NCBI RefSeq assembly: GCF_000980885.2
Contig: NZ_LBDA02000001.1
Location: 62,001 to 126,000, forward strand
Length of the DNA: 64,000 nucleotides
Direction: 5' to 3'
Source of the DNA: Streptomyces malaysiense
GTDB taxonomy: Bacteria > Actinomycetota > Actinomycetes > Streptomycetales > Streptomycetaceae
In this document: positions 1,701 through 29,150 of the stretch, piece after piece
Layout: each line of letters starts with the position of its first letter
Numbering within the stretch: position 1 is the stretch's first letter
The notes under the pieces: generated by a model
What the model was told of the DNA's origin: nothing
Seen by the model: the letters and a program-made list of their open reading frames with translations, nothing else
Databases searched by the model: none
Made by a program: the position numbers and the translations under genes

Positions 1701-1754
1701 CCGCTCGGGAGTACGGAGTCCCCGGCCGTGCCGCGACGGCCGGGGCGGGACCCG

Positions 1755-2462: not shown

Positions 2463-2621
2463 GTCGCTCAACACTCCTGGTTGGTCGGGGCACGCGCCGG
2501 ACGCGTGCCTACGGTGCCGAGTGCGCCGTCACCCCACTCCGATGCACGGACGGTGGGAAAAGTTCGGAACACGACGGTACTTTTTCCCGCTTCGGCCCCG
2601 GACCGACCCTCGGCTCACCCC

Positions 2622-4034: not shown

Positions 4035-4081
4035 ACGACTATCATGCCTGCCCTGAGATCGACTCGAAGGAGGGCCACGAC

Positions 4082-4630
4082 GTGCGGGACGAGGGGCCGG
4101 TGGAGGAACTCGCCCGGCATGCCGCCGCCGGGGACCAGACGGCACTGGACCGGCTGCTGGCCGAGCTGCGGCCCGACGTCGTACGCCGCTGCGGACGCTT
4201 CCTGCCCTGCCGCGAGGACGCCGAGGAGGCCGCCCAGGACGTGCTGCTCCAAGTGGCCCGGCACATCGGCGCCTTCGAGGGCCGCAGCCGCTTCGGCACC
4301 TGGCTGTACACCGTGGTGGCCAACTGCTGCAGGCAGAAGTACCGCGAGCTGAAGCGGCGGGCCGCCGAACAGCCCGTCGCCATCGAGCCGGCGCACGCCG
4401 TCGACCCGCGCACCACCAGCGTCATCGCCGGCTCCCGGGTGGACCTGCTGGAGGCCCTGGAACGGCTGGAGCGGGAGCATCCGAACCTGGTCGCGCCGCT
4501 GGTCTACCGGGACATCTGCCAGCTCGACTACGCCGAGGCCGCCGAACGCGCCGGTATTCCGCTCGGCACCTTCAAGTCCCGTCTGCACGAGGCCCGCAGA
4601 CAGGTGAGGCCCTGGCTCACGAGCCTGTGA
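4082..4630 (+). CDS. ECF-family RNA polymerase sigma factor
   Basis: 182 aa, GTG start behind a strong AAGGAGGG ribosome site. Region 2 (about 25-90) includes REDAEEAAQDVLLQVARHIG and SRFGTWLYTVVANCCRQKYR, the core-binding and -10 recognition helices. Region 4 (about 120-178) has YAEAAERAGIPLGTFKSRLH, a helix-turn-helix for the -35 element. There is no region 1 or 3, as expected for ECF factors. No anti-sigma factor is adjacent. Its neighbours are a divergent Ser/Thr kinase and a convergent PAS-GAF-SpoIIE-HATPase protein, so control by phosphorylation or partner switching is plausible but is inference. The last 14 bases overlap the 3' end of the opposing phosphatase gene. Confidence 0.92.
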   Translation: MRDEGPVEELARHAAAGDQTALDRLLAELRPDVVRRCGRFLPCREDAEEAAQDVLLQVARHIGAFEGRSRFGTWLYTVVANCCRQKYRELKRRAAEQPVAIEPAHAVDPRTTSVIAGSRVDLLEALERLEREHPNLVAPLVYRDICQLDYAEAAERAGIPLGTFKSRLHEARRQVRPWLTSL

Positions 4631-7010
4631 CCGGCGGCTGCCCGTCCTCCTCGAACAGCGGCAGCTCCGCCCAGATCGTCTTGCCGTCGCCGGTGTGCCT
4701 GCTGCCCCAGCGCTGGGTGAGCTGGGCGACCAGCAGCAGCCCCCGGCCGCCCTCGTCGAAGGTCTTGGCCCGGCGCAGATGCGGGGCGGTGTGGCTGGTG
4801 TCGGAGACCTCGCAGATCAGTGTGGCCGCGTCATGGATCAGCCGGAGCCGGATCGGGTGGGCGCCGTAGCGGATGGCGTTGGTGACCAGCTCGCTGACCA
4901 CCAGCTCCGCCGTGAACGACGCCTCGCTCAGCCCCCACATGTCCAGCTGCCCCACCACCTGCTTGCGGATCGGCGCGACCAGTGCCGGGTCCGCCGGGAT
5001 GTCCCAGGTCGCCACCTGGGAGGCGGGCAGGCCCTGGGTGCGGGCGAGCAGCAGCGCCACGTCGTCGGCGGCGCCACCGGTCGGCAGCAGGGTGCGCAGG
5101 ATCCGGTCGCAGGAGAGGTCCAGCGAACCGGCGCCCGCGCTCAGCGCCTCGAAGAGCATCGCGCGCCCGGCGTCCCGGTCCCGGGACTTGACCAGACCGT
5201 CCGTGTACAGCGCGAGCACGGTGCCCTCCGCCAGCTCCACCTCGGCGGACTCGAACGGCAGCCCGCCCAGGCCCAGCGGCGGTCCCGCGGGCAGGTCCAG
5301 CTGGTGCGGGCGGCCGTCCGGCGGCAGCACGACGGGCGGTGGGTGCCCGGCGCGGGCCAGCGTGCAGCGCCGCGACACCGGGTCGTAGACGGCGTACAGA
5401 CAGCTCGCGCCGACCTCGCCGGTGCTGCCGTCCCGGCCGGTCTCCTCGGCGAGCCGCATCACCAGGTCGTCCAGGTGCGTGAGCAGTTCGTCCGGGGCGA
5501 GGTCGATGTCCGCGAGGGTGCGTACGGCGGTGCGCATCCGGCCCATGGCGGCCGAGGCCTGCACGCCGTGCCCGACCACGTCCCCGACGACCATCGCGAC
5601 CCGCAGCCCCGACAGCGGGATCACGTCGAACCAGTCGCCGCCCACCCCGGCCCGCGCCGCCGGCAGATAGCGGGAGGACGCCTGCAGCGCCGCCGTGCGC
5701 GGCAGCGTGCGGGGCAGCAGGCTGCGCTGCAGGGCGAGGGCGGTCTCCCGTTCCCGCGAGTACCGCCGGGCGTTGTCGATGCAGACGGCGGCCCGGGTGG
5801 TGATCTCCTCCGCCAGCAACCGGTCGTCGGAGTCGAAGCCGTCCGGGCGCCGGTGCCGTACGAAGACCGCGACCCCCAGGGTGAGCCCGCGGGCCCGCAC
5901 CGGGACCGACATCGTGGAGTGGATGCCGAAGGCCCGCACCTGCCGGGTGCGGGCGCTGTTCCAGTTCATCCAGGGGTGCGTGCCGCCCACGGTCCTGGAG
6001 GCGATGATGGTGCGACCCGCGGTCAGCGAGTCGGCCTGCGCGGAGCCGCCCGGATAGCGCTCGGTCTGCCCCGGCTCCATCACCGCCTCCGGCACCCCGT
6101 CCAGGATCGAGCGGTGGGCGGCCCGGCGCAGGGTCACCGGGGTGGCGATGCGGGCCGGGGGCTCTCCGCCGTACTCCTCGGGGTCCAGCAGGTCGACGGT
6201 GACGAAGTCGGCGAGCGCCGGCACGCACATGTCGGCCAGTTCCTGCGCCGTGCGGGTGACGTCGAGGGTGGTGCCGATGCGCACGCTCGCCTCGTTGACC
6301 AGCTGGAGCCGCTGCCGGGCCCGGTGGCTGTCGCTGACGTCGTGCGCGGCCAGGCAGACCCCCCGCACCCGGCCCGCGCGGTCGTGCACCGGGGCCATCC
6401 GGGCGAGCCAGGCGTGCGCCCGGCTCTCGCCGCCCGCCCGCATGAAGGTCTGCACGTCCAGCGGGCGGTCGGTGGCCAGCACCTCGCGCATGCCCCGCGC
6501 CAGTTCCTCGCTCCGCGGGTCGTCGACCAGTTCCGTGAAGCGCAGGCCCCGCGCGTGCTCCTCCGGCAGCCCGGACACCAGGGACATGGCCTCGTTCATC
6601 CGGCGCAGCCGCAGCTCCTCGTCGTACACCGCGATCGCGCACGGCGACTGGATCAGGCCCGCATCGCCAAGCGGATCGTCCGCGGCGGGCGGTTCCGCAC
6701 GGGGCACCGGGGTGACCAGGATCCACCGGCCCCCCGATCCGTCCGTCGCCGGGCGGTACCGGGCGAGCAGCCATACGTCGACGCCGCGGCCGTCGCGGTG
6801 GCGCACGCAGAGCGTGCCGTGCCAGCGGGAACCCCGGGGCAGGACGGGGGCGGGGCCGGTGAGCAGATCCGCGGCGGGGCGGCCCAGGACCGCGTCGGCG
6901 GGGTGGCCGAGCAGACGCCGCGCGCCCTCGTTCCACTCCACCAGCGTTCCGTCGTCATCGATGACAGCTCGGGCCGTCGCCGCCTCGTCGAACGGATTGA
7001 CCCGGCTCAT
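4617..7010 (-). CDS. PAS-PAS-GAF-SpoIIE phosphatase-HATPase signalling protein
   Basis: 797 aa. The ATG (MSRVNPFDEAATARAVIDDD) is chosen because GGGAG lies eight bases upstream; a longer in-frame start reads through promoter sequence. Domains in order: PAS (about 12-110, VEWNEGARRLLGHPADAVLG), PAS (about 125-235, LRLRRMNEAMSLVSGLPEEH), GAF (about 245-425), SpoIIE/PP2C phosphatase (about 440-655) with LQRSLLP, GGDWFD, VGDVVGHG and ARAGHPPPV metal and substrate motifs, and a C-terminal RsbW-like HATPase (about 675-790, ELVTNAIRYGAH). Streptomyces has dozens of such cytoplasmic sensors, thought to switch anti-sigma partners by dephosphorylation and kinase activity. Convergent with the ECF sigma gene. 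Upstream, a TAGGCT -10-like box lies about 50 bases before the start. The signal is unknown. Confidence 0.92.
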   Translation of the reverse strand: MSRVNPFDEAATARAVIDDDGTLVEWNEGARRLLGHPADAVLGRPAADLLTGPAPVLPRGSRWHGTLCVRHRDGRGVDVWLLARYRPATDGSGGRWILVTPVPRAEPPAADDPLGDAGLIQSPCAIAVYDEELRLRRMNEAMSLVSGLPEEHARGLRFTELVDDPRSEELARGMREVLATDRPLDVQTFMRAGGESRAHAWLARMAPVHDRAGRVRGVCLAAHDVSDSHRARQRLQLVNEASVRIGTTLDVTRTAQELADMCVPALADFVTVDLLDPEEYGGEPPARIATPVTLRRAAHRSILDGVPEAVMEPGQTERYPGGSAQADSLTAGRTIIASRTVGGTHPWMNWNSARTRQVRAFGIHSTMSVPVRARGLTLGVAVFVRHRRPDGFDSDDRLLAEEITTRAAVCIDNARRYSRERETALALQRSLLPRTLPRTAALQASSRYLPAARAGVGGDWFDVIPLSGLRVAMVVGDVVGHGVQASAAMGRMRTAVRTLADIDLAPDELLTHLDDLVMRLAEETGRDGSTGEVGASCLYAVYDPVSRRCTLARAGHPPPVVLPPDGRPHQLDLPAGPPLGLGGLPFESAEVELAEGTVLALYTDGLVKSRDRDAGRAMLFEALSAGAGSLDLSCDRILRTLLPTGGAADDVALLLARTQGLPASQVATWDIPADPALVAPIRKQVVGQLDMWGLSEASFTAELVVSELVTNAIRYGAHPIRLRLIHDAATLICEVSDTSHTAPHLRRAKTFDEGGRGLLLVAQLTQRWGSRHTGDGKTIWAELPLFEEDGQPPVTGS

Positions 7011-7281
7011 CGTCGCCGCTCCCAAGCGCACACTCACAGTGAAAAGGTGGCACCTCTCGCGACCCCAGCCTAGTGCTTCCCGCAGAGCGGTGAACGCCGG
7101 GCCCCGGGACGGGGTGGGAGCGCGGGCGGCCGCGGGGTGCGGTGACCGGCTCGCGTCGTGGCACACCGGCCCCGGCGGGCGCCGCCGTCCGGATCCCTGC
7201 GGCGCTCACCCCGTGCCGCATCGCGCCGGCCGTTCCGGGGGCCGGCCGGTACCGCACCGGATACGACGTGGCCTGGGGAAA

Positions 7282-7310
7282 TTTACGGGTGAGTACCCGA
7301 GCGGTACGGT
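7282..7310 (+). promoter_or_regulatory. Promoter for a leaderless antitoxin-like gene
   Basis: TTTACG at 7282-7287 and TACGGT at 7305-7310 are separated by exactly 17 bases. The -10 box ends seven bases before the ATG at 7318, so transcription should begin at or next to the start codon and give a leaderless message. No ribosome site is visible before the ATG, which agrees. Confidence 0.6.
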
Positions 7311-7317
7311 TTGGTCC

Positions 7318-7557
7318 ATGCCAGCTCTCAACGTGGAGTTCAGTGATCGGGAACTAGAGGACCTGCGGCAGATCGCCAAGGAGCGCGGTACGTCGATGAA
7401 GGCCCTCGTCCGCGAGGCCGCCGCCGCCGACATCGCCCGGCACCGGGCGCTGAAGGAGGGCGCCGCGGCGTTCCGCAGTTTCTTCACCGCGCACGCCGAC
7501 GAGTTCGCCGCCGCGTTCCCCGAGGACGAACCGCCCGCACGGGGCGAGGCCGCCTGA
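7318..7557 (+). CDS. Putative antitoxin of a Fic-like pair
   Basis: 79 aa beginning MPALNVEFSDRELEDLRQIA. The N-terminal half (VEFSDRELEDLRQIAKERGT, then SMKALVREAAAAD) reads as a short strand followed by two helices, the ribbon-helix-helix pattern of many antitoxins. The C-terminal half (AAAFRSFFTAHADEFAAAFP) is an amphipathic tail suited to neutralising a partner. It is immediately followed by the Fic/Doc-like gene with no gap. The gene appears leaderless from the promoter just upstream. The inferred role is to bind and restrain the downstream protein and to repress the shared promoter. The call rests on size, fold pattern and position. Confidence 0.7.
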   Translation: MPALNVEFSDRELEDLRQIAKERGTSMKALVREAAAADIARHRALKEGAAAFRSFFTAHADEFAAAFPEDEPPARGEAA

Positions 7558-7560
7558 GTG

Positions 7561-7938
7561 ATGCCGCCCGTCATCCACATCGACGTCCCGTGGCTGCTCC
7601 AGCGGCACGAAGAGGTCCTGCCCGAGCAGCCCGCGGTCGACGACTTCTCCGCGCTGGTCGCCGCCGTCGCCCGGCACCGGGTCGACCCGCCCCGGCTCGG
7701 CGTGGACTCCGACCCCGCATGGCGGGCCGCCGCCCTGCTGCACACCCTCGCCCTGCTCAAGCCGCTGCCCGCGGCCAACGCCCGCTTCGCCTGCGCCACC
7801 GCCGTCGCCTACATGTTCGTCAGCGGCGCCGGCATCGACCCGCCCTACGGCGCCCTGGTGGACCTCGCCCGCGACCTGATCTCCGGCAAGACGGACGTGT
7901 ACGGGGCCGCCGACCGGCTCCGCTCCTGGCAGATCTGA
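7561..7938 (+). CDS. Fic/Doc-like protein with degenerate catalytic motif (toxin-position gene)
   Basis: 125 aa from ATG; a GTG directly before it at 7558, abutting the antitoxin stop, is also possible. Residues 55-85 follow the Fic fold helix pair (AALLHTLALL then ARFACATAVAYMFV). The expected catalytic motif HPFx(D/E)GNxR reads KPLPAANAR at 67-75: the catalytic His is Lys, the Phe is Leu, the acidic metal ligand is Ala and the Gly is Ala, while Asn73 and Arg75 remain. Known Fic proteins transfer AMP or phosphate to target proteins; this one probably cannot do so by the standard mechanism. It may be an inactive regulator, a phosphate-transfer variant, or a conserved Streptomyces subfamily with its own chemistry. 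It forms a two-gene unit with the preceding gene. Confidence 0.7.
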   Translation: MPPVIHIDVPWLLQRHEEVLPEQPAVDDFSALVAAVARHRVDPPRLGVDSDPAWRAAALLHTLALLKPLPAANARFACATAVAYMFVSGAGIDPPYGALVDLARDLISGKTDVYGAADRLRSWQI

Positions 7939-7948
7939 CCGCGCGGGA

Positions 7949-7971
7949 CCGGGGGGCGGACCGTCCCCCGG
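7949..7971 (+). terminator. Hairpin terminator after the Fic-like gene
   Basis: Arms CCGGGGG (7949-7955) and CCCCCGG (7965-7971) enclose a 9-base loop, starting ten bases after the stop codon. There is no U-tract, as is usual in Streptomyces. Confidence 0.5.
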
Positions 7972-8378
7972 CTTCCCCGGACTTCCCGCGACCCCCCGTG
8001 CGCGCCGCCGCTCCCGCCGCCGGTCGCCGTCTTTCGCCTGCGCGCCCCCGTCCGCCGCGCGGAGCGGTGATCGTCAGGTGAACACAGGGAGTCATGGAGG
8101 GGGTCCCGGACGGCCGTGTCGGAATGTTTCCGGACGATTAAATAACCGCTGATTTTCAGCCAATTGACGACTTCCCAAGGGCCGCCACCGCCCAGTTGCC
8201 GGGTCGCGTCGTTCGAATTCCGTGACTTCACGCCACTGCTTCAACACGAAATGTTACCGAAACCTGCGGGGTCGATGTGTGTTTCCGGCGGGGACTCGGC
8301 AGAGTGGCGCTCGCCGCTCCGACGTCCCACCGGAAACGGAGCAGGCACCCGTCTAGTTCGAGCGGAAGGATGCACACC
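7972..8378. other. Non-coding gap upstream of the protease inhibitor
   Basis: About 400 bases with no convincing ORF. Positions 8128-8165 form an unusually AT-rich pocket (GATTAAATAACCGCTGATT), a likely promoter region for the inhibitor gene; I could not assign boxes with confidence. Confidence 0.4.
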
Positions 8379-8813
8379 ATGCGGAACACCGCGCGCTGGG
8401 CAGCGGCCCTCGGCCTCACGGCCGTCGCCGTCTGCGGACCCCTGACCGGGGCCGCCGTCGCCGCCCCGGACGCCGCCCCGGCCTCGCTCTACGCCCCCTC
8501 GGCGCTGGTGCTGACCGTCGGCCACGGCGGTGAAGCGGCCACCGCGACCCCCGAACGCGCCGTCACACTCAGCTGCGCCCCGACCGCCTCCGGCACCCAC
8601 CCGGCCGCCCCCGCGGCCTGCGCCGAACTGCGCGCGGTCGGCGGCGACTTCACCGCCCTCAAGGCGCGTGACGACGTCTGGTGCAACAAGCTCTACGACC
8701 CGGTGGTCGTCACCGCCCAGGGTGTGTGGCAGGGCCAGCGGGTCAGCTACGAGCGCACGTTCGGCAACTCCTGTGAGCGGGACGCCGTCGGCGGCAGCCT
8801 CTTCGCGTTCTAG
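8379..8813 (+). CDS. Secreted subtilisin-inhibitor-like protein (SSI family) with Lys at P1
   Basis: 144 aa. The ATG at 8379 is chosen because GGAAGGA lies nine bases upstream. A Sec signal peptide of about 28 residues ends in GAAVAA. The mature part shows the SSI pattern: Cys66-Cys81 and Cys102-Cys132 have the same spacing as the two disulfides of SSI, and the reactive loop reads WCNKLYDPV. By alignment to SSI (Cys71 plus two) the P1 residue is Lys104 with P1' Leu, instead of Met-Val. A basic P1 in this family gives trypsin-like protease inhibition, so the target is probably a trypsin-like extracellular protease. SSI proteins are abundant exoproteins that restrain secreted proteases during morphological development. 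Monocistronic, with a strong terminator downstream. Confidence 0.93.
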
Positions 8814-8969
8814 CGAGGGCTGCGCAAGGACCGGGATCGCAGGATCTCCGTGTACACCGGATCAGGACCGTGACTGGGGAGTGCGGACCTCTCGGAACGG
8901 GGAACCCGTGATCTCGCGCCGGACCGCCGGGCGAAGTGGGGTCGCCCGCCGGCTTGCCGGCACACTGAG

Positions 8970-9011
8970 CCGCTCCCCGGACAGGCCCGTGGGGGGCCTG
9001 CCGGGGAGCGG
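8970..9011. terminator. Bidirectional hairpin terminator between convergent genes
   Basis: CCGCTCCCCGG (8970-8980), one bulged A, CAGGCCC (8982-8988), a five-base loop, then GGGCCTG and CCGGGGAGCGG (8994-9011). The 18-bp stem lies between the SSI gene (+) and the CDGSH gene (-), ending 17 bases from the CDGSH stop. Confidence 0.8.
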
Positions 9012-9028
9012 CGAAAAACGAACGGTGC

Positions 9029-9226
9029 TCAGGCCTTGCGCCGATGGCTCGTGTCGCACCACGGGTAGCGGCGAGATCGGTGGCAGGTACACAGAGCGAC
9101 ACGCCAGCGGTCCGAGAACACTGTCGTACCGTCTTCCAGTTCCACCTCGACCGGCCCCTCCACCAGCAGCGGCCCCGGCCGCCGTACGGTGATCCGGCGG
9201 GCGCGGTCAGTGGGTTCGTTCGGCAC
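9029..9226 (-). CDS. CDGSH iron-sulfur domain protein
   Basis: 65 aa, GTG start. The C-terminal part contains CTCHRSRRYPWCDTSH, matching C-x-C-x2-(S/T)-x3-P-x-C-D-x-(S/T)-H: Cys46, Cys48, Cys57 and His61 would hold a labile 3Cys-1His [2Fe-2S] cluster. Known CDGSH proteins (mitoNEET type) are redox or cluster-transfer proteins. The remaining sequence is a short beta-rich N-terminus. It is the last gene of a four-gene unit and overlaps the methyltransferase gene by 20 bases. The likely job is electron or cluster supply to the operon's iron enzyme, which is inference from context. Confidence 0.9.
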   Translation of the reverse strand: MPNEPTDRARRITVRRPGPLLVEGPVEVELEDGTTVFSDRWRVALCTCHRSRRYPWCDTSHRRKA

Positions 9227-16945: not shown

Positions 16946-17794
16946 GTGAGTCGGTTGCGGCGCGGCCTGCACCGCGCTTGGCGGTGGATCCGCATCCAGG
17001 CCCTGTTCACGCACGGCCGGGAGCTGGAGCTGATGCACCGGGCCATGGGTTTCGCCACCCTGGCGCTGGTGACGCTGGCCCCGCTGCTGATCGTGGTCGC
17101 CGCCGCCGACCCGCTGGTGCAGGGCGGGTTCGCCTCCTGGCTGACCGACGGGATGGGGCTGTCCGGCCCGTCGGCGCGCGTGGTCACGGACGTCATCAGC
17201 CCCCCGCACAACGTCATCGGCGCCACCAGTGCCTGGAGCGCCGTGCTGCTCGCGGTGTTCGGCGTGTCCTTCGGGGGCAGCGTGCAGAACGCCTACGAAC
17301 GCATCTGGGGCCTCTCCGCCGGGCCCTGGCACCGGGTCTGGCGCCAGGCCACCTGGCTGATCGTGCTGACGGCCTACCTCTACCAGGAGGTGGCGACCAA
17401 GGCCGCGCTGCACGGCTCCCAGCGGATCGTGCTGTCCGGGCTCAGCGGTGTGCTGTTCTTCTGGTGGGGGCAGCACTTCCTGCTCGGCGACCAGGTCCGC
17501 TGGCGGAAACTGCTGCCCGGCGCGCTGGCCACCATGATCGGCCTCGCGGGCCTGCGCGCCTTCTCCTACCTCGTCTTCACGCCCCTCATCGTCACCAACG
17601 CCCTGAGCTACGGCGCGGTCGGCACCGTCCTCGTCCTGGAGTCCTGGCTGATCGGCGTCGGCTTCGTCATCTACGGCGGCGCCCTGTTCGGCCGCTGGTT
17701 CTGCGATCACCACTGGATGCCGGCCCACCTGCGCGGACACGAGGACGGGGACAGCGGGGAGGCCGGGGAACCGGAGCAGGACGAGCCCCTCTAG
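16946..17794 (+). CDS. YihY/BrkB-family membrane protein
   Basis: 282 aa from the GTG at 16946, with GGGAGG four bases upstream; a GTG six codons earlier is possible. Six hydrophobic helices follow the family pattern: MGFATLALVTLAPLLIVVAA, the VLLAVFGVSFGGSVQNAYERIWGL-type stretch around 115, and C-terminal GTVLVLESWLIGVGFVIYGG. The product ends in an acidic hydrophilic tail. YihY/BrkB proteins are integral membrane proteins, once called ribonuclease BN and now of uncertain function. It is divergent from the glycosyltransferase gene. Confidence 0.85.
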   Translation: MSRLRRGLHRAWRWIRIQALFTHGRELELMHRAMGFATLALVTLAPLLIVVAAADPLVQGGFASWLTDGMGLSGPSARVVTDVISPPHNVIGATSAWSAVLLAVFGVSFGGSVQNAYERIWGLSAGPWHRVWRQATWLIVLTAYLYQEVATKAALHGSQRIVLSGLSGVLFFWWGQHFLLGDQVRWRKLLPGALATMIGLAGLRAFSYLVFTPLIVTNALSYGAVGTVLVLESWLIGVGFVIYGGALFGRWFCDHHWMPAHLRGHEDGDSGEAGEPEQDEPL

Positions 17795-17817
17795 CCAGGG
17801 GATCGTCCCGGCTCTCC

Positions 17818-18453
17818 TCAGGCCCCGTCGCCGCCGCGTTCCACGAGCCGCCGCCGGGCGATCTCGTCCCCGGGACCGGCGCGGCGGGCGAGCAGGCCGG
17901 CCACGTGGGCGCGGTGCGGGGCGTCCGCGTTGCCGCCGTACTTGAACTTGGCGGTCACCTTCTCCACCCGGACCCGCAGCCCCTGGATACCGGCGAGGCG
18001 GCGGCCGTGCTCGGCGGGGTCGACCAGCGAGGCACCGCCGTCGCTCTCCTCGCGGGCGATCTGGCGGCGCAGGATCTCCGCCTTGCCCTCGGGGTCGGCG
18101 ACGACGCGCGCCGTGCCGACGAGCTGGGCGGCCGCGTAGTACGTGGTCGGGACGCCCCGCGCGGGGTCCTCGTCACCGAGGGTCTTCCACGCGCCCGGGA
18201 TGTACGCCCAGTCGCCGGCGACGGACATCATGACGACCGGGTTCTCCTCGACCGCGGCCCAGACGGGGTTGGCGCGGGCGAGGTGCAGCAGGACCTCGGC
18301 CCCGTCCGCGTCCTGGGTCACGACGAACTGCGTCGGCACGACCACCGGCACGTCCCGCCCCCGCCCGGCCGCGACCAACTGCCCGAACCGGTGCGTCCGG
18401 GCCAGTTCGAGACCCTCCTCGGCCGTCCCGGCGTCCCATGGCTGAACGAACAA
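17818..18453 (-). CDS. paiB: PaiB-like FMN-binding negative transcriptional regulator family
   Basis: 211 aa starting at TTG, with GGAGGAGGGG just upstream supporting the rare start. The N-terminus MFVQPWDAGTAEEGLELART and the central VLLHLARANPVW and WAYIPGAWKT stretches are the split-barrel flavin-binding signatures of PaiB. The C-terminal KVTAKFKYGGN motif (K-x-SQ-like position) is the family's conserved Lys-rich tail. In Bacillus PaiB represses sporulation and protease genes; in other bacteria the biochemical role is unclear. Stop-to-start spacing to the next gene suggests an independent transcript. Confidence 0.85.
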   Translation of the reverse strand: MFVQPWDAGTAEEGLELARTHRFGQLVAAGRGRDVPVVVPTQFVVTQDADGAEVLLHLARANPVWAAVEENPVVMMSVAGDWAYIPGAWKTLGDEDPARGVPTTYYAAAQLVGTARVVADPEGKAEILRRQIAREESDGGASLVDPAEHGRRLAGIQGLRVRVEKVTAKFKYGGNADAPHRAHVAGLLARRAGPGDEIARRRLVERGGDGA

Positions 18454-18487
18454 CGTCCCCTCCTCCGACGGTTCCAGGGGCGTGAGC

Positions 18488-19771
18488 CTACTCGGAGGTC
18501 GCGCGCGGCTCGGGCACGGCCTCGGGTCCCGCGGGACCCGGAGCGCCGTCCGGGGCCGGCCGGGTGCGGTGCGCGGCGAGCCCGCGGTAGGCGGTCGCCG
18601 CGCTGGCCACGCTGAGGGCGGCGGCGGTCAGGAAGCTCCAGCGGGCGTCGCCGCCGGCGCCGGCGGCGATCGCCCCGAACAGCACGGCGCCCAGGGGGTT
18701 GGCGGCGAACGCGAACGTACGGGCGTTCGCGGTCACCCGGCCGAGCAGCCGGGCCGGCACGACGCGCTGGCGCACGGCGCGGATGTGCACGGAGGCGAAC
18801 ACCGAGAGGCCCCCGTGCAGGAAGTTCGCGGCGGCCAGGAACAGCGGGTCGCGGGCCGCTCCCATGGCCAGCAGGGTGCCGCCGAGGCCGATGACGGACA
18901 CGGCGATCAGCGGTCCGGCGTCGAAGCGCCGGGCCGCGGCGTCGGCGACGGAGGTGGCCCCGACACCGCCGAGTCCGGCCGCGGCGAGGACGACGCCGAT
19001 CCACGTGGGCGAGGCGTGCAGATCGTGGGTGGCGTAGAAGACGACGAGGGTCTCGGCGGCGATGACCAGGTTGACGACCACCTGGAGCGAGACCAGCCGC
19101 ATGACCAGCGCGTGGCCGCGGATGTAGCGCAGCCCCTCGGCCATGTCCCGGCGGACCGAGGCACGCGCCCCGGGCCCGGCCGGGGTACCCGCGTCGAAAC
19201 GCATCGGGACGAGGGTGAGGGCGGAGAGCAGGAAGGTGACGGCGTTGAACCACATCGCGGAGGGCACACCGAACGCGGCCACGCCGGTCCCGATGACGGC
19301 GGGTCCCAGCAGCAGACCGAGCTGATTGCTCATCTCCAGGCGGGCGTTGCCGGTCACCAGGTCCTGTGGGCGCAGGCTGGTCTGGACGGCGACGGCAAGG
19401 GCGGTCTCGAAGAACACGCCGGCCGAGGACGCGGCGAAGGCCAGCAGCAGGACGAGCGCCGGGCCGAAGGGGGCCTGCACGGCGGCGGGCAGCACGCCGA
19501 AGACCGCGAAGCGCAGCAGGTCGCAGACCAGCATCACGCGCCGGGGGTCGCGCACGCGGTCCACGACGGGCCCGGCGAGGAAGCCCACGAGCAGGTACGC
19601 CACCGTACGGGGGGTCGCCGCGAGGGCGCCAAGGACCGGGCTGCCGGTGGCGTGGATCACCAGCAGGGGGACGGCGAGCGCCGCCGCGCCGTCCCCGATG
19701 ACGGAGATCGTCTGGCCGCTCCACAGCAGCCTGAACGTGCTGCCGCGGACCGTACCGGTGCTCAACGCCAC
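18488..19771 (-). CDS. MFS exporter (macrolide-efflux-like), last gene of the peptide locus
   Basis: 427 aa from GTG. Twelve hydrophobic helices; FRLLWSGQTISVIGDGAAALAV-type helix 1 and GFLAGPVVDRVRDPRRVM (motif A) place it in the MFS_3/MefA-like group. The acidic, Pro-rich tail is hydrophilic. It lies on the same strand as, and 113 bases downstream of, the ALDH-like gene of the peptide locus, so it may export the small-molecule or peptide product or confer self-resistance. The spacer contains three near-copies of CGCCTGCT (19785-19808). Membership of the operon is inferred from orientation only. Confidence 0.8.
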   Translation of the reverse strand: MALSTGTVRGSTFRLLWSGQTISVIGDGAAALAVPLLVIHATGSPVLGALAATPRTVAYLLVGFLAGPVVDRVRDPRRVMLVCDLLRFAVFGVLPAAVQAPFGPALVLLLAFAASSAGVFFETALAVAVQTSLRPQDLVTGNARLEMSNQLGLLLGPAVIGTGVAAFGVPSAMWFNAVTFLLSALTLVPMRFDAGTPAGPGARASVRRDMAEGLRYIRGHALVMRLVSLQVVVNLVIAAETLVVFYATHDLHASPTWIGVVLAAAGLGGVGATSVADAAARRFDAGPLIAVSVIGLGGTLLAMGAARDPLFLAAANFLHGGLSVFASVHIRAVRQRVVPARLLGRVTANARTFAFAANPLGAVLFGAIAAGAGGDARWSFLTAAALSVASAATAYRGLAAHRTRPAPDGAPGPAGPEAVPEPRATSE

Positions 19772-19884
19772 GTCTTACTTCCTTCGCCTGCTCGCCTGCT
19801 CGTCTGCTCGCCGGCCGCGGGCCCGTCGGCCCTCGCCGGTCCCACGCGTCCTGGGGGTGCCGCCGGACATCCGCGTCCCGCGCG

Positions 19885-20838
19885 TCATACGAGGAAGTCG
19901 CCGGGCCACCCCTGCCACGGGTCGCGTCCGAAGCCCACCAGGGTGCCGAGCGCACCGTCGGCGTCGCACGGCAGGGCGGTGTATCCGGCGATCTCCCCGG
20001 GTGGTTCGTCGAGGGAGCCGGTGAGCCGCAGGACTGCCGAGGGGTGGGCCTGGGTGACGACCTCCCCGGGCGCGACTCCGGTGCCGTCGCGCCGCCAGGG
20101 CGCGGCGCCCGCCGGGCCGGTGCCCCACACACCGCCGAGCCGGGTGCAGCTGCCGGGGTGCCGGTGGGAGCCGAGCGCGGCCGCCGCGGCGGCCAGCCGC
20201 TCGCCGTCGGGGCCGGCGAGCACGACGCAGCCGCCGGTCGCGCCCAGCACCGTCGCGCGGGTGGCCGCCCGCACCTTCTCGGCGGTGGCCGGATGGCCGG
20301 TGACCACCACCAGGTCGTCGGCGGTCAGCGCCGCGACCGCCTCGGCGGCGGGCGCGGCAGCCGGGCGCAGCGCGTCGTCCGGCAGGCGCAGCAGCCGGGC
20401 CGTCCGGGACACCGCCGAGGCGATCGCGGCGCGCTGCCGGTCGTGGCCCGCGACCCGTACCGGGACGCCGCACACCGCGAACGGCGCGGCCCGCCGCAGC
20501 AGATGGACCATGTGCCCGTGGGCGGGCAGCAGGGCGAGCACCCGCCCGCGCCCGTGCCAGCCGGCCCTCGCGGCGGGTTCCCGGCCGGCGAGGGCGAGCG
20601 TCCGCCGGGCCGACCAGCGCGCGGTGGCGGCCACCTCCCGGGCGAGCACCCCCGGCCACACCGCGGGCGGGAGCCGGGGGTCGCGCAGGGCCGCGGTGTC
20701 GTCGCCGGGCACGCCCACGGCCAGCAGGTCGCGCAGCGCGGCGAAGGAGTTGCGCAGCGGCCGTCGCTCCAGGGGCAGCACGGCGCCCACGCCGAAGCGA
20801 CCCGCCCCGTCCGCTCCCTCGCGAGTCGTCTCAGGCAT
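19885..20838 (-). CDS. Aldehyde-dehydrogenase/LuxC-like acyl reductase
   Basis: 317 aa. The middle matches the ALDH fold: LVVVTGHPATAEKVRAA corresponds to the usual FTGS-type loop, TVLGATGGCVVLAGPDGERL to the LELGGK segment, and HPGSCTRLGGVWG to the NAGQxC catalytic loop with putative nucleophile Cys near 229. The general-base Glu of the LELGG segment is Val, as in acylating enzymes such as LuxC that reduce acyl thioesters to aldehydes. VLALLPAHGHMVHLLRRA may be the cofactor loop. It is only about two-thirds of normal ALDH length. The ATG overlaps the tandem iron-enzyme stop by eight bases, so the two are coupled. The alternative reading is an inactive scaffold; the substrate is unknown. Confidence 0.5.
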   Translation of the reverse strand: MPETTREGADGAGRFGVGAVLPLERRPLRNSFAALRDLLAVGVPGDDTAALRDPRLPPAVWPGVLAREVAATARWSARRTLALAGREPAARAGWHGRGRVLALLPAHGHMVHLLRRAAPFAVCGVPVRVAGHDRQRAAIASAVSRTARLLRLPDDALRPAAAPAAEAVAALTADDLVVVTGHPATAEKVRAATRATVLGATGGCVVLAGPDGERLAAAAAALGSHRHPGSCTRLGGVWGTGPAGAAPWRRDGTGVAPGEVVTQAHPSAVLRLTGSLDEPPGEIAGYTALPCDADGALGTLVGFGRDPWQGWPGDFLV

Positions 20839-22693
20839 CGGTGTGCCAGCCGGCCCGCTGCACGATCGCCGCCTCGCCGTGCCGGTAGTGCTGGAGGATC
20901 CCGTCCAGGAAGCTCCAGGTGAGCTGGGGGACGAGGGCGGCCGCGGCGACGGACTCGCGGTCGACGCGGTGCCGGGTGGTGAGCAGGTCGAGCAGGACCC
21001 GGGTGTCGTCGCCGTGGCCGAGCCGGGTGTCCTCGTCGTCGTGGCGCCGCATCGCCGCCACCATCGCCTCCGCGCCGGGGCACCGGTCGAACACCGTGCG
21101 GTAGAAGCCGTCGTGGCGGGCGTGCACCCCGCCGTCCGCGGCGGTGAGCGACAACTGGAGGTAGGCCAGGGCGATCACGTACGCCTTCCAGTCGCGCCCG
21201 CCCAGCTCGCGCAGGGTGCCGACGAAGGCGACCGTGGTCGGCAGCGGCCGCATCCGGTCGGTGGGCAGCCCCGGGTAGCGGTTCCCGCGTGCTCGTTCGA
21301 TGCCGCGCAGGAACATCTTGCCGTGATTGAACTCCTCGGTCAGATGCTTGACGAGTTCGGCCCGGATCACCGGGTCCGGGCAGGCGGCGACCGCGGCGCC
21401 GGCGTGCTGCCAGATCCCGGCGACGTAGTGGTAGTTCTCGACCATCCAGCCGTGCACCAGCGGAAGGGTGGGGTCCTCGGTGAGCCGGCGCCACAGCCGG
21501 TGTCCGTCGATGGCCGTCATCCAGCCCTCGACCAGTTTCTCCAGGTCGGCCGCGCTGGTGCCGCCGTCCCAGTCGCGCGCGGTACGCGTGGTCAGGTCGC
21601 GCGCGGCGGTGGCGGGAGTGGGACCGGCACCCTCCGCGGCCGGCTCCCGGCCGGTGGCACGCCCGGAGAAGGCGTAGGCGAGCGCGAGGGTCCGGCGGAC
21701 GCCGGGGCGCGGGCTGCGCGGGCCGTGCGTGACGGAGTCGTAGATCTCGGCGGGCCACACCGGCAGTCCGTCGGCCTCGCCACCGAGGGTGCGCACGGGA
21801 CCGTCGAGGGCCAGCCCCGGGGCCGCCTCGACCACGGTGGCCGACAGGCCCTCGGTGCACGTCTCCAGCCAGCGGACGATCATCTCGGCGACCAGGCTCA
21901 CCGCGTTGAGCCAGTCGGCGAGTTCCGCCGCGGGCACGACGCCGGCGGCCTCCAGGGCGTGCCGCCAGTTGGAACCGTGGCCGAGGCCGAGGTCGGTCTG
22001 CACGTGTTCGAAGATCGCGTCGACCGCCTCGCGGGAGAGCACCCCCTGGTCGACCAGCATGGTGTGCCACCCGGCGACCGACTCGCGGTCCCCGGCGGTG
22101 TACTCCAGCAGCCCGGAGCAGAGCGCCGCGGCCAGCGGGCCGTAGGCGGCGACCGTGCGCATGAGGTGGATCCACTCGACCGTCACCGGCGCGGGCCGGG
22201 CCTCGCGCACCAGGTCGCGGGGCAGGCCCAGCGCGGCCAGCCCGTTCTCGAAGTACGTGTCGTGGTCGGCCTCTTCGACCACGTGGTGCGCCTGGAGGCG
22301 GATCAGGGCACCGGGTCGCAGCGCGTCGGTGATGCCGCCGGCCATCCGGAACGGCGCCGCGGCCAGATAGTGACGCGACTCCAGGAGGTAGGCGAGGACG
22401 GGCGCGGCGCCGTCGGTGCCGCGCGCCGCGCGGATGCGCCGCCACACCGGGTGGCCGTAGACGAACTCCAGGCTCGCCCGGTACTGCGCCTCGACCAGTT
22501 GTCCGGCCTCGGCCGCCGGGAAGCACCGGTCGCCGGGACCGAGCCCGAGCGGGCGCAGCAGGGTGGTCAGCAGCGAGGAATTTCCGGCCGCGGTGAGCGG
22601 AAGCTCCACGGAATCCACGAGAATTACCGGTTCCGTTTTCTCGTCGTCACTGGAACGGGAAAGGTAGGGAACCGTCCTGCGGAGCTTCGTCAA
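20831..22693 (-). CDS. Tandem heme-oxygenase-fold (iron redox) protein of the peptide locus
   Basis: 620 aa from a TTG preceded by GGGAGAGAGA; ATG-less, so the start is less certain. Two all-helical domains are visible. The first (about 60-290) has LQAHHVVEEADHDTYFENGL near 145 and IFEHVQTDLGLGHGSNW near 245. The second (about 380-600) has HGWMVENYHYVAGIWQHAG, HLTEEFNHGKMFLRGIER near 450 and HARHDGFYRTVFDRC near 535. These resemble Glu/His/Asp ligand sets of the PqqC/TenA/diiron oxidase superfamily. The first codons use rarer A/T-ending codons than its neighbours. It lies after the 33-residue peptide gene and a hairpin, and overlaps the ALDH-like gene. The inferred role is O2-dependent modification of a product of this locus. 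Confidence 0.72.
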   Translation of the reverse strand: MTKLRRTVPYLSRSSDDEKTEPVILVDSVELPLTAAGNSSLLTTLLRPLGLGPGDRCFPAAEAGQLVEAQYRASLEFVYGHPVWRRIRAARGTDGAAPVLAYLLESRHYLAAAPFRMAGGITDALRPGALIRLQAHHVVEEADHDTYFENGLAALGLPRDLVREARPAPVTVEWIHLMRTVAAYGPLAAALCSGLLEYTAGDRESVAGWHTMLVDQGVLSREAVDAIFEHVQTDLGLGHGSNWRHALEAAGVVPAAELADWLNAVSLVAEMIVRWLETCTEGLSATVVEAAPGLALDGPVRTLGGEADGLPVWPAEIYDSVTHGPRSPRPGVRRTLALAYAFSGRATGREPAAEGAGPTPATAARDLTTRTARDWDGGTSAADLEKLVEGWMTAIDGHRLWRRLTEDPTLPLVHGWMVENYHYVAGIWQHAGAAVAACPDPVIRAELVKHLTEEFNHGKMFLRGIERARGNRYPGLPTDRMRPLPTTVAFVGTLRELGGRDWKAYVIALAYLQLSLTAADGGVHARHDGFYRTVFDRCPGAEAMVAAMRRHDDEDTRLGHGDDTRVLLDLLTTRHRVDRESVAAAALVPQLTWSFLDGILQHYRHGEAAIVQRAGWHTDA

Positions 22694-22737
22694 TTCTCTC
22701 TCCCACGCCGAATGTCAGCTGCCTGCACTCGTCCTGA

Positions 22738-22776
22738 CGTGCCGGTGCTGCCCTGATGAGGGGCGGCACCGGCACG
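22738..22776 (-). terminator. Attenuator-like hairpin after the 33-residue peptide gene
   Basis: Arms 22738-22753 and 22761-22776 pair at 15 of 16 positions around a seven-base loop, starting 11 bases after the peptide stop and 45 bases before the tandem iron-enzyme gene. It probably reduces transcription of downstream genes relative to the peptide. Confidence 0.8.
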
Positions 22777-22787
22777 CGCGGGAACGT

Positions 22788-22889
22788 TTACTCGACGACC
22801 GCGGCCCGCAGCTCCTGCGACGCCTCGGCGGCGCGCGCCTCGACGTCCGCGATCTCCTGGAGTTCCTCGATCGAGATTTCCTCGGCCAT
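22788..22889 (-). CDS. 33-residue acidic mini-peptide (candidate precursor or scaffold)
   Basis: ATG behind GAGGAG, ending at TAA (rare in this genome). The product starts MAEEISIEELQEIADVEARA and ends QELRAAVVE. It has eleven acidic residues against three Arg, no Cys, Gly, Pro or aromatic residue, and is predicted by eye to be one amphipathic helix. It has no double-glycine site and no signal peptide, unlike the other small gene of this locus. It is followed at once by a strong hairpin and then the tandem iron-enzyme gene. The layout is that of ribosomal peptide precursors; a scaffold, leader-only peptide or small regulatory subunit is also possible. I know no family with this sequence. Confidence 0.6.
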   Translation of the reverse strand: MAEEISIEELQEIADVEARAAEASQELRAAVVE

Positions 22890-22971
22890 CGCATTCTCCT
22901 CAATCAGTGCCGGCAGGTCGCCAACCTGAATACCCGCAGGACCGGGTTCCGGCAAGAAGGAGAGAAATTGA

Positions 22972-25803
22972 TCAAAGCGTTTCGGCCAGTTGCCGCCGCA
23001 CCAGTTCGTGCAGCCGGCCCGTCGTGTCCGCCAGCAGTTCGGCCGGCCTGCCCTGCTGGACCACGCGGCCGTTCTCCATGACGATCACCCGGTCCGCGTC
23101 CAGGACCGTGGACAGGCGGTGGGCGATGACGACGCGGGTGGCGTTGAGTTTGCGGGTGCTGTCGATGACGATGCGCTGGGTGTCGTTGTCGAGCGCGCTG
23201 GTCGCCTCGTCGAAGAAGAGGATGCGGGGCCGGCGGATCAGCGCCTGGGCGATCATCAGCCGCTGGCGCTGCCCGCCGGAGACCGAGCCGCTGCCGGAGA
23301 CGATGGTGTGCAGGCCCATCGGCATGCGCTTGATGTCCTCCGCGAGCCCCGCCATCTCGGCCGCTGCCATCGCCTCCTCGGGGGTGCACGGCTCGGTGCC
23401 GCAGATGACGTCCAGGAGTGAGCCGGTGAACGGCTGGGCGTGCTGGAGCACCACCCCGCACTGGCGGCGCACCGCCGACTGGTCGAGGGCGGCGAGATCC
23501 TGGCCGTCGTACAGGACGCTGCCGGAGAGCGGCCGGTCGAAGCCGATCAGCAGCCGCAGCAGGGTGGACTTGCCGCAGCCGCTCGGGCCGACGACCGCGA
23601 CGAACTCGCCCGCCTCGACGGTGAAGTCGACATTGTCCAGGACGAGCGGGCCGTCCTCGGTGTACCGGAAGGACAGCTTGCGGGCCTCCAGCGCGCCGCT
23701 GAGGGGTCCGGGCCGGGTGCTCGCGGCGCGGACCTCGGGCGCGGCCTCCAGGACCGGGCGGATCTCCTCGAACAGCGGCAGCGCGGCCACCGCCGACACC
23801 AGGGAGCCGGTCAGCTGGGTGACGGAGGTGAGCACCATCGTCACCGAGGTGTTGAAGGTGAGGAAGTCCGCCGCCGACAGCGTGCCCTTCGCCGGGCCCG
23901 CCAGCAGCATGAACATCAGCAGCGAGCACACCGGCAGATAGACCGCGCCGAGCACGGTGCTGAGGTTCTTGATCCGCCCGGCCTTCTGCTGGAGCTCCCG
24001 GCCGCGCGCGAACTCCCGTGCCCACGCGGCGTACGCGTAGTTCTCGGCGGCCGCGACCCGCAGCTTGGGCAGCCCGCGCAGGGTCTGGAACGCCTGGTTG
24101 TTCAGCCGGTTGCCGAGCACCACCAGACGCCGCTGCCAGCGCACCTGCCACAGCCCGAGCCCGAGGAACACGGCCGCGATGACCACCAGCATGCCGATCG
24201 CCGCGAGCGCCATCGGTACGCTGTACCACAGCAGCAGACCGAGGTTCATGGCGCCGACGGTCACCGACTGGGCGACCACCGGGCCGACGCCCGCCAGCAT
24301 CCGGCGCATCGCGCTGATCCCCATGGCCGCGCTGGCCAGTTCGCCGGTGGAACGCCTGGTGAAGAACCGGGTGGGCAGCCGCAGCAGCCGGTCCCAGACG
24401 GCCGGTTGCAGCGCCGACTCGACCCGCCCTTCCAGACGCAGGATCGACAGGTTCTCCAGCAGGGTGAACGCCGCCGACACCACCCCGCTCACCATCACCG
24501 CCAGGCACACCTGGACGATCAGGCCCTCCTGGGCCCTCGGCACGTACTCGCCGAGCACCTTGCCGGTGGCGACGGGCACCAGCGCGCCGATCGCCACCGT
24601 CACCAGACCCGCGAGCAGCAGCCCGAGCAGATCACCGCGGGCGCCGCGCAGGGTGAACCGGAGCAGGCCGAGCGGCGAGAGCGGCTTGTCGGGCAGCGGC
24701 CGGTAGAACATCACCGCGCGCGGCTCGAAATCCTGCGCGTTCACCTTGTCGACGGGCGTCTCCCGGCCGCTGCCGGGGTGGACGGCCGCGTAGCCGCCGC
24801 GCCGCCACAGCAGGGCGACCGGCGCTCCGGACAGCGCCCGCTGCCCCACCAGCGGCCCCACGTTCTCCCGCCACCAGCGGCCGTCGAGCCGTACCGCGCG
24901 GGTGCGTACCCGGGAGGCCAGCGCCACGCGCTCGACCGGATCGAGGCGCTCGCTCTCGGTGCCGCCGCGCGCGGGTTCGGCGAGCCTGATCCCGGCGGCC
25001 GCGGCGACCAACTCGCAGGCCGCGTACGTGGCATCGGCGTCGGCCGCCGTCGTACGACGCCCCGAGCGGCGGCCGATCGAGGCGAGCAGGGTGCGGTCCG
25101 CCTGGGCGCCCGCCGCCTCACCCGCCTTGATCCCGGCGGCAGTCCGGGTCTCGTGGCTGCGCTCCAGCTGCTCGATCCAGCGGTCCAGCGCGGTCAGCAG
25201 CCGGTACTGCTGGTCGACCAGCGACTGCCACAGCGCCGCGTCCATCAGCAGGTCGGCGGCGGCCTCCGCGCCGTACAGGGAGCCGTACTGGACGCTGCCG
25301 GGCGGCACCTGCATCCAGAACACGTCGTCGTCGGTGGGGACTTCGGGCCGCTCCTCGGCCAGCGGGGCCTGGAAGAGCACGGACAGGCCGCGGCCGACGC
25401 CGAGCGCGAGGGCGTACTCCAGCGGGCTGGACACGGGCGGCACGTACTGCGGCCGCCCGTACTCGTCGTACGACCAGGTCTGGGTGTCCGTCCGCTGGTA
25501 CAGCTCGCGCAGGTTCACCCGGTGCAGCGCGCAGTCCCGCACCGGGCGGGCCACCAGGGTGTGCCGGGGACCGGAGACCGGGCCGAGCAGCAGCGCGCCC
25601 GCTTCGAGGCGGCCCAGATGGTGCCACTGGCCCTGCCCGCCGGCATCGACCGCGAACAGGTCCAGGGCGCCCGCCGCCACCAGCCAGAGCACCTGGGGGC
25701 CCGCCAGGTCGAGGCGGGTGAGTCCGGCGCCGTCGACGCGGGTGCCGAGCGCGCCCAGCGCCCCGAGCACCACGTCCTCCCCGTAGCCCTCCTGAACCGT
25801 CAT
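22972..25803 (-). CDS. NHLM-type ABC transporter, second subunit without peptidase
   Basis: 943 aa from the ATG at 25803. The N-terminal roughly 350 residues are soluble (cyclic-nucleotide-binding-like beta pattern, then a helical stretch), as in the NHLM_ABC2 group of peptide exporters. A six-helix ABC membrane domain follows (about 360-640), then an ATPase domain with Walker A GPSGCGKSTL, signature SVSGGQRQRL, Walker B RILFFDEATSALD and the HRLS switch. There is no C39 peptidase, so it is expected to pair with the preceding gene. Its start shares one base with that gene's stop (TGATG). It lies at the inner cytoplasmic membrane and exports the leader-cleaved peptide. Confidence 0.9.
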   Translation of the reverse strand: MTVQEGYGEDVVLGALGALGTRVDGAGLTRLDLAGPQVLWLVAAGALDLFAVDAGGQGQWHHLGRLEAGALLLGPVSGPRHTLVARPVRDCALHRVNLRELYQRTDTQTWSYDEYGRPQYVPPVSSPLEYALALGVGRGLSVLFQAPLAEERPEVPTDDDVFWMQVPPGSVQYGSLYGAEAAADLLMDAALWQSLVDQQYRLLTALDRWIEQLERSHETRTAAGIKAGEAAGAQADRTLLASIGRRSGRRTTAADADATYAACELVAAAAGIRLAEPARGGTESERLDPVERVALASRVRTRAVRLDGRWWRENVGPLVGQRALSGAPVALLWRRGGYAAVHPGSGRETPVDKVNAQDFEPRAVMFYRPLPDKPLSPLGLLRFTLRGARGDLLGLLLAGLVTVAIGALVPVATGKVLGEYVPRAQEGLIVQVCLAVMVSGVVSAAFTLLENLSILRLEGRVESALQPAVWDRLLRLPTRFFTRRSTGELASAAMGISAMRRMLAGVGPVVAQSVTVGAMNLGLLLWYSVPMALAAIGMLVVIAAVFLGLGLWQVRWQRRLVVLGNRLNNQAFQTLRGLPKLRVAAAENYAYAAWAREFARGRELQQKAGRIKNLSTVLGAVYLPVCSLLMFMLLAGPAKGTLSAADFLTFNTSVTMVLTSVTQLTGSLVSAVAALPLFEEIRPVLEAAPEVRAASTRPGPLSGALEARKLSFRYTEDGPLVLDNVDFTVEAGEFVAVVGPSGCGKSTLLRLLIGFDRPLSGSVLYDGQDLAALDQSAVRRQCGVVLQHAQPFTGSLLDVICGTEPCTPEEAMAAAEMAGLAEDIKRMPMGLHTIVSGSGSVSGGQRQRLMIAQALIRRPRILFFDEATSALDNDTQRIVIDSTRKLNATRVVIAHRLSTVLDADRVIVMENGRVVQQGRPAELLADTTGRLHELVRRQLAETL

Positions 25804-28934: not shown

Positions 28935-29150
28935 TCAGAGACCGGCGACCAGGCTGGTGACCGGGGCCACGTTCAGGCCGGTGACACCCTCGACCGTGCC
29001 GATGGCCGTGTCGGCCAGGCCGGAAACCGGGGCGATGCCGTTGACGGCGCCGGTCACGGTGTTGAGGGCGTTCACCTGGAGACCACCGGAGACGGCGTCC
29101 AGCTCGGCGTCGGCGATCTCAACGGTCTCGACCTGGGGGGTGGAGTTCAT
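28935..29150 (-). CDS. Double-glycine-leader peptide precursor (candidate bacteriocin-like RiPP)
   Basis: 71 aa from the ATG at 29150, chosen because GAAGGGAAG lies eight bases upstream; ATGs 4 and 10 codons earlier have weaker sites. The 23-residue leader ends EIADAELDAVSGG, matching the ELxxVxGG site cut by C39 peptidases. The 48-residue core starts LQVNALNTVTGAVNGIAPVS and ends TGLNVAPVTSLVAGL. It has no Cys, Lys, Arg, His, Trp, Tyr or Phe, only Gly/Ala/Val/Thr/Asn/Pro/Ser/Leu/Ile with one Asp and one Glu. It is built from two imperfect repeats (VTGAVNGIAPVSGL and VTGLNVAPVTSL). It lacks the Cys needed for thioether rings. It is the first gene of the operon with its own exporter. Confidence 0.85.
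   Translation of the reverse strand: MNSTPQVETVEIADAELDAVSGGLQVNALNTVTGAVNGIAPVSGLADTAIGTVEGVTGLNVAPVTSLVAGL

Follow-up and report, generated by a model that had tools for sequence, protein, structure and literature searches.

What does a 33-codon open reading frame do in front of the gene for a tandem iron oxidase? This question is raised by one locus of the window, that is, the whole stretch of 64,000 nucleotides analysed here, for which an earlier note had described an acidic mini-gene and had left its product as a precursor or scaffold peptide, or a small protein partner. The features of the locus are collected in Table 1.

Table 1. Features of the mini-gene locus, with positions given in the window.
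Feature	Position	Strand	Basis or occurrence
Island of about 5.2 kb (FMN protein, MFS, 317-aa gene, HDO, mini-gene)	17795..22971	.	absent in two same-genus genomes, both flanks matched
FMN-binding pyridoxamine-oxidase-like protein (FMN_bind_2)	17818..18453	minus	2/5 loci
MFS transporter	18488..19771	minus	5/5 loci; divergently transcribed in L005
Aldehyde-dehydrogenase (ALDH)-superfamily-like protein, 317 aa, SCT motif (C231)	19885..20838	minus	4/5 loci
Tandem HDO (heme-oxygenase-like diiron oxidase), 620 aa	20831..22693	minus	Pfam, fold matches, ligand motifs
GC-rich stem-loop in mini-gene/oxidase spacer, no T-run	22738..22776	minus	fold energy vs shuffles
Mini-gene, 33-aa putative precursor/carrier peptide (assigned role), C-terminal -VVE	22788..22889	minus	ORF of such kind before 5/5 HDO loci
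Ribosome binding site GAGGAG and spacer	22890..22901	minus	read from sequence

Mini-gene and its conservation beside the oxidase

The product of the mini-gene is MAEEISIEELQEIADVEARAAEASQELRAAVVE, and the coordinates, the sequence and the TAA stop given earlier were all correct, the strand being minus. The good ribosome site noted before is seen as GAGGAG located 6 bases 5' of the ATG, and purine-rich Shine-Dalgarno-like stretches are also present ahead of the mini-ORFs of the four relatives described below. The peptide is acidic as claimed, with a net charge of -8, and the window copy carries no GG site, again as claimed, the copy of the most distant relative (L022) having RGGIVE. The proposal of a full-length amphipathic helix was not supported, as the helical hydrophobic moment was equalled by 25% of the shuffles of the peptide's own residues, and by 8-48% of shuffles for the peptides of the four relatives. 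No Pfam or NCBIfam family matched the mini-peptide. The hairpin placed 11 bases past the stop was confirmed as a stem-loop beginning there, the fold energy of the spacer giving a z value of -5.1 against base shuffles. A GC-rich stem begins 11-16 bases past the mini-ORF stop in four of the five loci, L022 being devoid of a stem; the spacer z values were -4.1 for L004, -2.2 for L005, -0.9 for L006 and +0.9 for L022, and the stem of L006 is not clearly above base shuffles. Promoter and terminator patterns were absent from positions 22600-23100, and Rfam gave no match at gathering score within 17000-24000.

Relatives of the locus were collected by a pattern scan of one genome per species over 84,980 species, which detects close relatives only, and which gave Streptantibioticus silvisoli (L004, 73% identity), Longimycelium tulufanense (L005, 66%) and Microbispora sp. 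(L006, 57%). A distant relative of 38-40% identity (L021/L022, genome G890) was obtained when 297 genomes from the family of L005 were searched. Together with the window, L004, L005, L006 and L022 make up the five tandem-HDO loci. The short ORFs upstream of the oxidases in these four relatives encode MAEQITVEELQEITALEERAEAAAAALRAAVVE; MGEKISVEELQELAEIAARSEAAASALRAGVVE (from a GTG start, or 36 aa via an earlier GTG); MHLTTEELEGLAEIVVRAESAADDLRPAVVE; and MNQNSDIDLRAGKLTAEDLGALESLVERTEAAARQLRGGIVE. In all five loci, an ORF of 31-42 aa ending in [IV]VE is thus located directly upstream of the oxidase, at a distance of about 33-152 bases. The N-terminus varies in length and sequence, and the C-terminus is kept to the last residue, the tail being Rxx[IV]VE with a C-terminal Glu in every copy. 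The earlier note had advised a search for conserved C-terminal residues beside homologous oxidases, and had named as fatal the loss of the ORF or codon changes that do not preserve the protein; both comparisons were run, and both came out in favour of the ORF.

Eight amino-acid columns are invariant across the five mini-peptides, and synonymous codon changes are found in five of these eight. Apart from the tail, the invariant residues are E8, L10, R19, A23, L27 and R28, and all five peptides have Ser or Thr at position 6; Ser/Thr6 and Glu8 would fit a helix N-cap, or could instead be handles. The last two codons of the mini-ORF are identical DNA in all five loci, and the host genomes, being GC-rich, presumably favour these two codons, so that the tail alone cannot separate protein conservation from DNA conservation, but L10, R19, A23, L27 and R28 do. 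The pN/pS ratio ranged from 0.48 to 1.61 over ten pairs and was uninformative.

The linkage to the oxidase was compared with a control set of 13 loci, L022 being left out. A filter on GC content by codon position, applied to the ORFs of 200 aa or longer, left 125 of them. Four of the 125 were preceded by a short ORF (20-60 aa) with an [IV]VE ending, and these four are the HDO genes of the window, L004, L005 and L006; none of the 121 other long coding-like ORFs carried one. A profile made from the other four peptides detected the L022 peptide with 23.6 bits (E 2.6e-4 for 100,000 sequences). When the mini-profile was searched through the 297 genomes of the L005 family, the copy of L005 itself and a weak partial match within a 250-aa frame of G1162 (E 8.9e-4) were found. 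The copy of G890 was missed by this genome-wide search with the same four-row alignment, and absence by peptide profile is therefore weak evidence. A DNA match (L002) considered as a second copy of the mini-gene sits inside a long ORF, read as a histidine kinase, and was rejected; weaker profile matches fell in frames of 50-1381 aa. From these observations altogether, we regard it as practically certain that the mini-peptide is genuine and tied to the HDO.

Island and the neighbouring NHLP exporter

Upstream of the mini-gene lies an NHLP bacteriocin export cassette on the same strand, of which two ABC proteins scored above the NCBIfam cut-offs and the HlyD protein just below. The exporter genes stop 82 bases upstream, and the mini-peptide might accordingly be taken for a substrate of this exporter with its C39 peptidase, as part of a bacteriocin cluster. 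This reading is largely refuted by empty sites and by the distribution within the genus. In two same-genus genomes, G020 (L044 and L033) and G016 (L034), the DNA matches the window up to 17729 and 17774, respectively, and then, about 30-45 bases on, from 22984 and 22974; the 5.2-kb unit is a discrete island separate from the exporter, and the mini-gene is to be grouped with the oxidase rather than the exporter. The ABC gene of the exporter was found in 70 of 101 same-genus genomes, with the window's own counted, as against one of 199 for the HDO, and gave no tblastn match in the other four HDO loci. In addition, as regards a leader domain, no NCBIfam family matched the mini-peptide, the GG site is missing from the window copy, and the exporter has a GG-type candidate precursor of its own. 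A role of the mini-peptide as NHLP substrate is thus highly improbable.

This candidate precursor, beginning with MNSTPQVETVEIADAELDAVSGG, is encoded at 28935-29147 (minus) directly before the exporter genes, and gave weak NCBIfam matches only (bacteriocin_sig, E 0.085; pheromone_VP1, E 0.0049); it is probably the true substrate of the C39 exporter. Among 11 other NHLP loci (L032-L042), a match to the island was found in none, and both flanks were matched in two, namely those of G020 and G016. For the other nine, with the exception of G003, only the exporter side was matched in the stretch examined. In a longer stretch of G003, both flanks occur, separated by about 8.2 kb of DNA with other genes. 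The insert of about 8 kb at the island spot of G003 (contig C14, L043 about 1042-9201) carries ORFs read as cytochrome-oxidase-like and cytochrome-b-like. This site next to the NHLP cassette may be prone to insertions.

The unit is rare. With the oxidase as query, the window's own genome was the only match among 199 genomes of the genus and among 394 of the class; in the family of L006, one of 297 genomes matched (L006 itself), and in that of L005, two of 297 (L005 itself and G890, the only genome of its genus covered). No relative was found on plasmids, and none of 61 pattern matches in viral contigs was a relative.

Tandem oxidase and its companion genes

The tandem iron-oxidase claimed to follow the mini-gene was borne out, as the next gene encodes a protein with two HDO domains. 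In Pfam, PF03070 scored above the cut-off and PF14518 just below, and residues 1-68 gave no match. The structure model has a mean pLDDT of 68, and VIA-align on this model recognized the helical heme-oxygenase-like fold in both halves, with Z values of 20.2 for residues 58-292 against 3dde, 19.4 for residues 62-281 against CADD, and 18.8 for residues 378-603 against a TenA homologue (2gm8). Domain 1 contains the motif E141xxH144, E197 and H230xxxD234xxxxH239, in which all six ligands of the expected 3-His/3-carboxylate set are present and invariant in the five loci; its spacing, with the Glu 53 residues on from ExxH and followed by HxxxDxxxxH, is near that of MboA, for which the available part of the source gives E86, H89, E143, H172, D176 and H181 (PMC13185094). 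Domain 2 contains E454xxH457, Q513 and H551xxxD555xxxxH560, of which five of the six ligands are present and all are invariant in the five loci, Q513 standing at the position where a carboxylate (Glu) is expected. The roles of these residues as metal ligands are predicted from motif spacing relative to MboA. The linker between the two domains (window 21719-21856, residues about 280-325) contains GLPVWPA at residues 309-315, invariant in all five loci. A resemblance of the linker to PVWPAAISGSITHG of EntD-type phosphopantetheinyl transferase was not significant (E 0.068) and was discarded.

The genes shared by the five loci were identified by an all-versus-all comparison of 269 coding-like ORFs of the five regions. 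At E 1e-5, 53 cross-locus pairs were obtained, of which 48 are inside the unit; the remaining five involve only ORFs that by reading are response-regulator-like or short-chain-dehydrogenase-like, and one window frame. By tblastn of the window genes in the four relatives, the oxidase and the MFS gene were found in all four, the 317-aa gene in three and the FMN protein gene in one. No ligase, either PEARL or ATP-grasp, and no protease is included among the genes common to the five loci.

The 317-aa gene overlaps the HDO gene by 8 bases, and its product in the window gave no Pfam match. In the model, pLDDT is at least 50 essentially only over residues 17-198, and Foldseek with this partly confident model listed aldehyde dehydrogenases (best E 1.2e-4) and gamma-glutamyl-phosphate reductase (E 5.3e-4). 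C231 of the SCT motif is invariant in the four ALDH-like copies and lies where the model has a pLDDT under 50. The protein that the earlier note had named an acyl reductase resembles a shortened ALDH-superfamily member; the gene is absent near L006, and the acyl-reductase role itself is putative. Directly before its mini-gene, L006 carries an NAD_binding_4 reductase gene, which may belong with the adjoining polyketide-type genes; the neighbours there encode an aminotransferase, an acyl-CoA dehydrogenase, a ketosynthase and a methyltransferase. The neighbours in L004 encode chorismate-binding, TauD and redoxin proteins. The outer context of L022 is little covered since its contig is 7,558 bases long.

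Possible function of the mini-peptide

The product of the mini-gene may well be a ribosomally made precursor, or a carrier, in a small RiPP-like pathway, in which the HDO would oxidise the terminal Glu or Val-Glu, and this is the reading to which we incline. As in RiPP clusters, an encoded candidate precursor adjoins a possible modifying enzyme; a recognition element or a leader protease is common in such clusters but not universal. The order of mini-gene and HDO, kept in all five loci, supports the precursor reading. A GC-rich stem after the first small gene is often found where that gene must be over-produced. Among the roles offered earlier, precursor or scaffold fits best, and the small protein partner is retained as a rival of lower standing; as to the further suggestion, that the enzymes attach or release a C-terminal residue, the shared genes include no PEARL or ATP-grasp ligase, so that attachment is less supported than modification of the encoded terminal Glu.

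In the proposed pathway, the acidic N-terminal part of the peptide would serve as the recognition handle, and the C-terminal Glu, with one or both of its carboxylates, would enter the active site of the HDO and ligate iron, like the C-terminal carboxylate of the MboA substrate. The two HDO domains would carry out one or two oxidations of Glu or Val-Glu, for example desaturation or oxidative decarboxylation, after which the ALDH-like protein would work on the carbonyl or acyl group so formed, an unlinked housekeeping peptidase would release the product, and the MFS pump would export it. Since Cys is present in none of the five peptides and Lys in only two, a thioester or lysine handle is unlikely. 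According to the sections available of one source, the C-terminal carboxylate of the peptide substrate of MboA ligates Fe1, and substrates do likewise in AetD, UndA, HrmI and PolF (PMC13185094), which fits a peptide that needs to end exactly in Glu. Several points count against the precursor reading: the tail is not the sole conserved polar site (Ser/Thr6 and Glu8 being others), no protease is shared, residues 1-68 of the HDO gave no Pfam match, the ALDH-like gene is lacking near L006, domain 2 has Gln513, and the stems of L006 and L022 are weak or missing. One product per 33-aa peptide would moreover be wasteful unless the peptide is reloaded, and a ligase for reloading is not among the shared genes.

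The main rival to the precursor reading is that the peptide serves the tandem HDO as a small subunit or gating partner, the substrate being a separate small molecule. The one-to-one linkage with HDO in five of five loci, the acidic make-up and the invariant residues along the chain beyond the tail (E8, L10, R19, A23, L27 and R28) all agree with a subunit, and an HDO gated by a partner protein is described for MboA with MboB in the available part of PMC13185094. However, the final residues belong to the most conserved stretch, the helical moment is no higher than in shuffles, and so short a peptide would seldom be a stable subunit; we consider the subunit somewhat unlikely. Rather less probable is a pearlin-like or LysW-like carrier, which overlaps with the precursor reading, and in which a ligase from another part of the genome, PEARL or ATP-grasp, would first join an amino acid to the terminal Glu, the HDO oxidation coming afterwards. 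The C-terminal Glu, present in all five peptides, is the attachment site in LysW-type carriers as far as the accessible text of PMC9303977 goes, and a Lant_dehydr_N match exists in all five genomes. Within the window's genus, however, 46 of 61 genomes also had such a match, a base rate for that genus only, and none was found in the five island proteins. Among the 10 compared of about 14 Lant_dehydr_N proteins, no close group extends across all five genomes: one is common to G000 and G582 (58%), another to G000 and G890 (50-57%), and other cross-genome matches are partial and at about 23-45%. LysW-type carriers have zinc-binding cysteines and an EDWGE tail; the five mini-peptides contain no Cys, hence no LysW zinc site, and end in Rxx[IV]VE, and a ligase is again missing from the shared genes of the loci.

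Improbable, and well behind these, is a regulatory leader peptide on which ribosome arrest at AVV-E would control the downstream genes. [AG]VV precedes E in four of the five peptides (AVV in three), a stem follows the ORF in four of the five loci, a pump is within the unit, and IAVV is the stalling motif of ErmAL1, the erm(A) leader, in the portion available of PMC12698558. Against such a leader, the pump is divergent in L005 and L022 is without a stem, the mini-gene precedes the HDO and not the pump, and the invariant residues E8, L10, R19 and A23 are far from the tail.

The precursor reading can be compared with several known systems. In the available text on thiovarsolin (VarA/VarO; PMC6511847), a ribosomal-peptide cluster likewise includes an HDO and an MFS gene, and release is ascribed to endogenous peptidases, whether VarO acts on the precursor or after proteolysis being unsettled. 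Unlike the island, with its single 33-aa peptide, tandem HDO and lack of YcaO, the thiovarsolin cluster has a repeating precursor, VarA, and YcaO/TfuA thioamidation. MboA, the mangotoxin acetylenase, is similar in that an HDO with near ligand spacing modifies the side chain of a tripeptide with an iron-ligating C-terminal carboxylate, but, judging from the same part of the source, its substrate is non-ribosomal and made by ATP-grasp ligases, and MboA appears not to be tandem (PMC13185094). The pearlins (TglA, TmoA and AmmA) share C-terminal chemistry on a short ribosomal carrier with release of a small product, and the LysW-type amino-group carriers share small size, a functional C-terminal Glu and negative charges, as described in the accessible sections of PMC9303977. 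They differ in that a PEARL adds the residue of pearlins and a protease releases the product, neither of which the island has, and in that LysW has a globular N-terminal domain, whereas the island has a peptide without Cys and is devoid of a LysX-type ligase.

Carrier peptides modified at the C-terminus (pearlins) and an HDO in a ribosomal-peptide pathway (VarO) are thus already known from the literature at hand. To our knowledge, VarO is the one ribosomal precedent for HDO chemistry. In the literature searched, in which few subscription papers were covered, no description was found of a Glu-ending peptide combined with a tandem HDO and an ALDH-like protein and with no linked ligase. We therefore suggest, tentatively and with less confidence than for the precursor role itself, that the island could represent a new class of peptide-templated pathway, in which an encoded C-terminal Glu would be converted to a small exported metabolite, without a ligase, by the tandem diiron oxidase together with a shortened reductase of the ALDH type, and which distant actinomycetes would carry as a transferable island of five genes. 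Should the C-terminal Glu be the substrate, HDO chemistry would here lead from a ribosomal peptide to a small metabolite by a minimal route, and orphan-looking HDO clusters could then conceal precursors of some 33 residues, missing from Pfam and NCBIfam.

PqqC and CADD are heme-oxygenase-fold enzymes that give small molecules from protein-derived residues, and both are among the fold matches of the HDO. PqqC builds its small molecule from such residues by acting on a released intermediate. The CADD family sacrifices a residue of its own, according to the available part of PMC11965152. CADD, a p-aminobenzoate synthase, is one of the solved structures nearest to the HDO in fold, and a link, possibly coincidental, may be seen to L004, where a gene for a chorismate-binding/amidotransferase fusion (L004 5450-7369, Streptantibioticus) is located about 0.3 kb upstream of the mini-gene.
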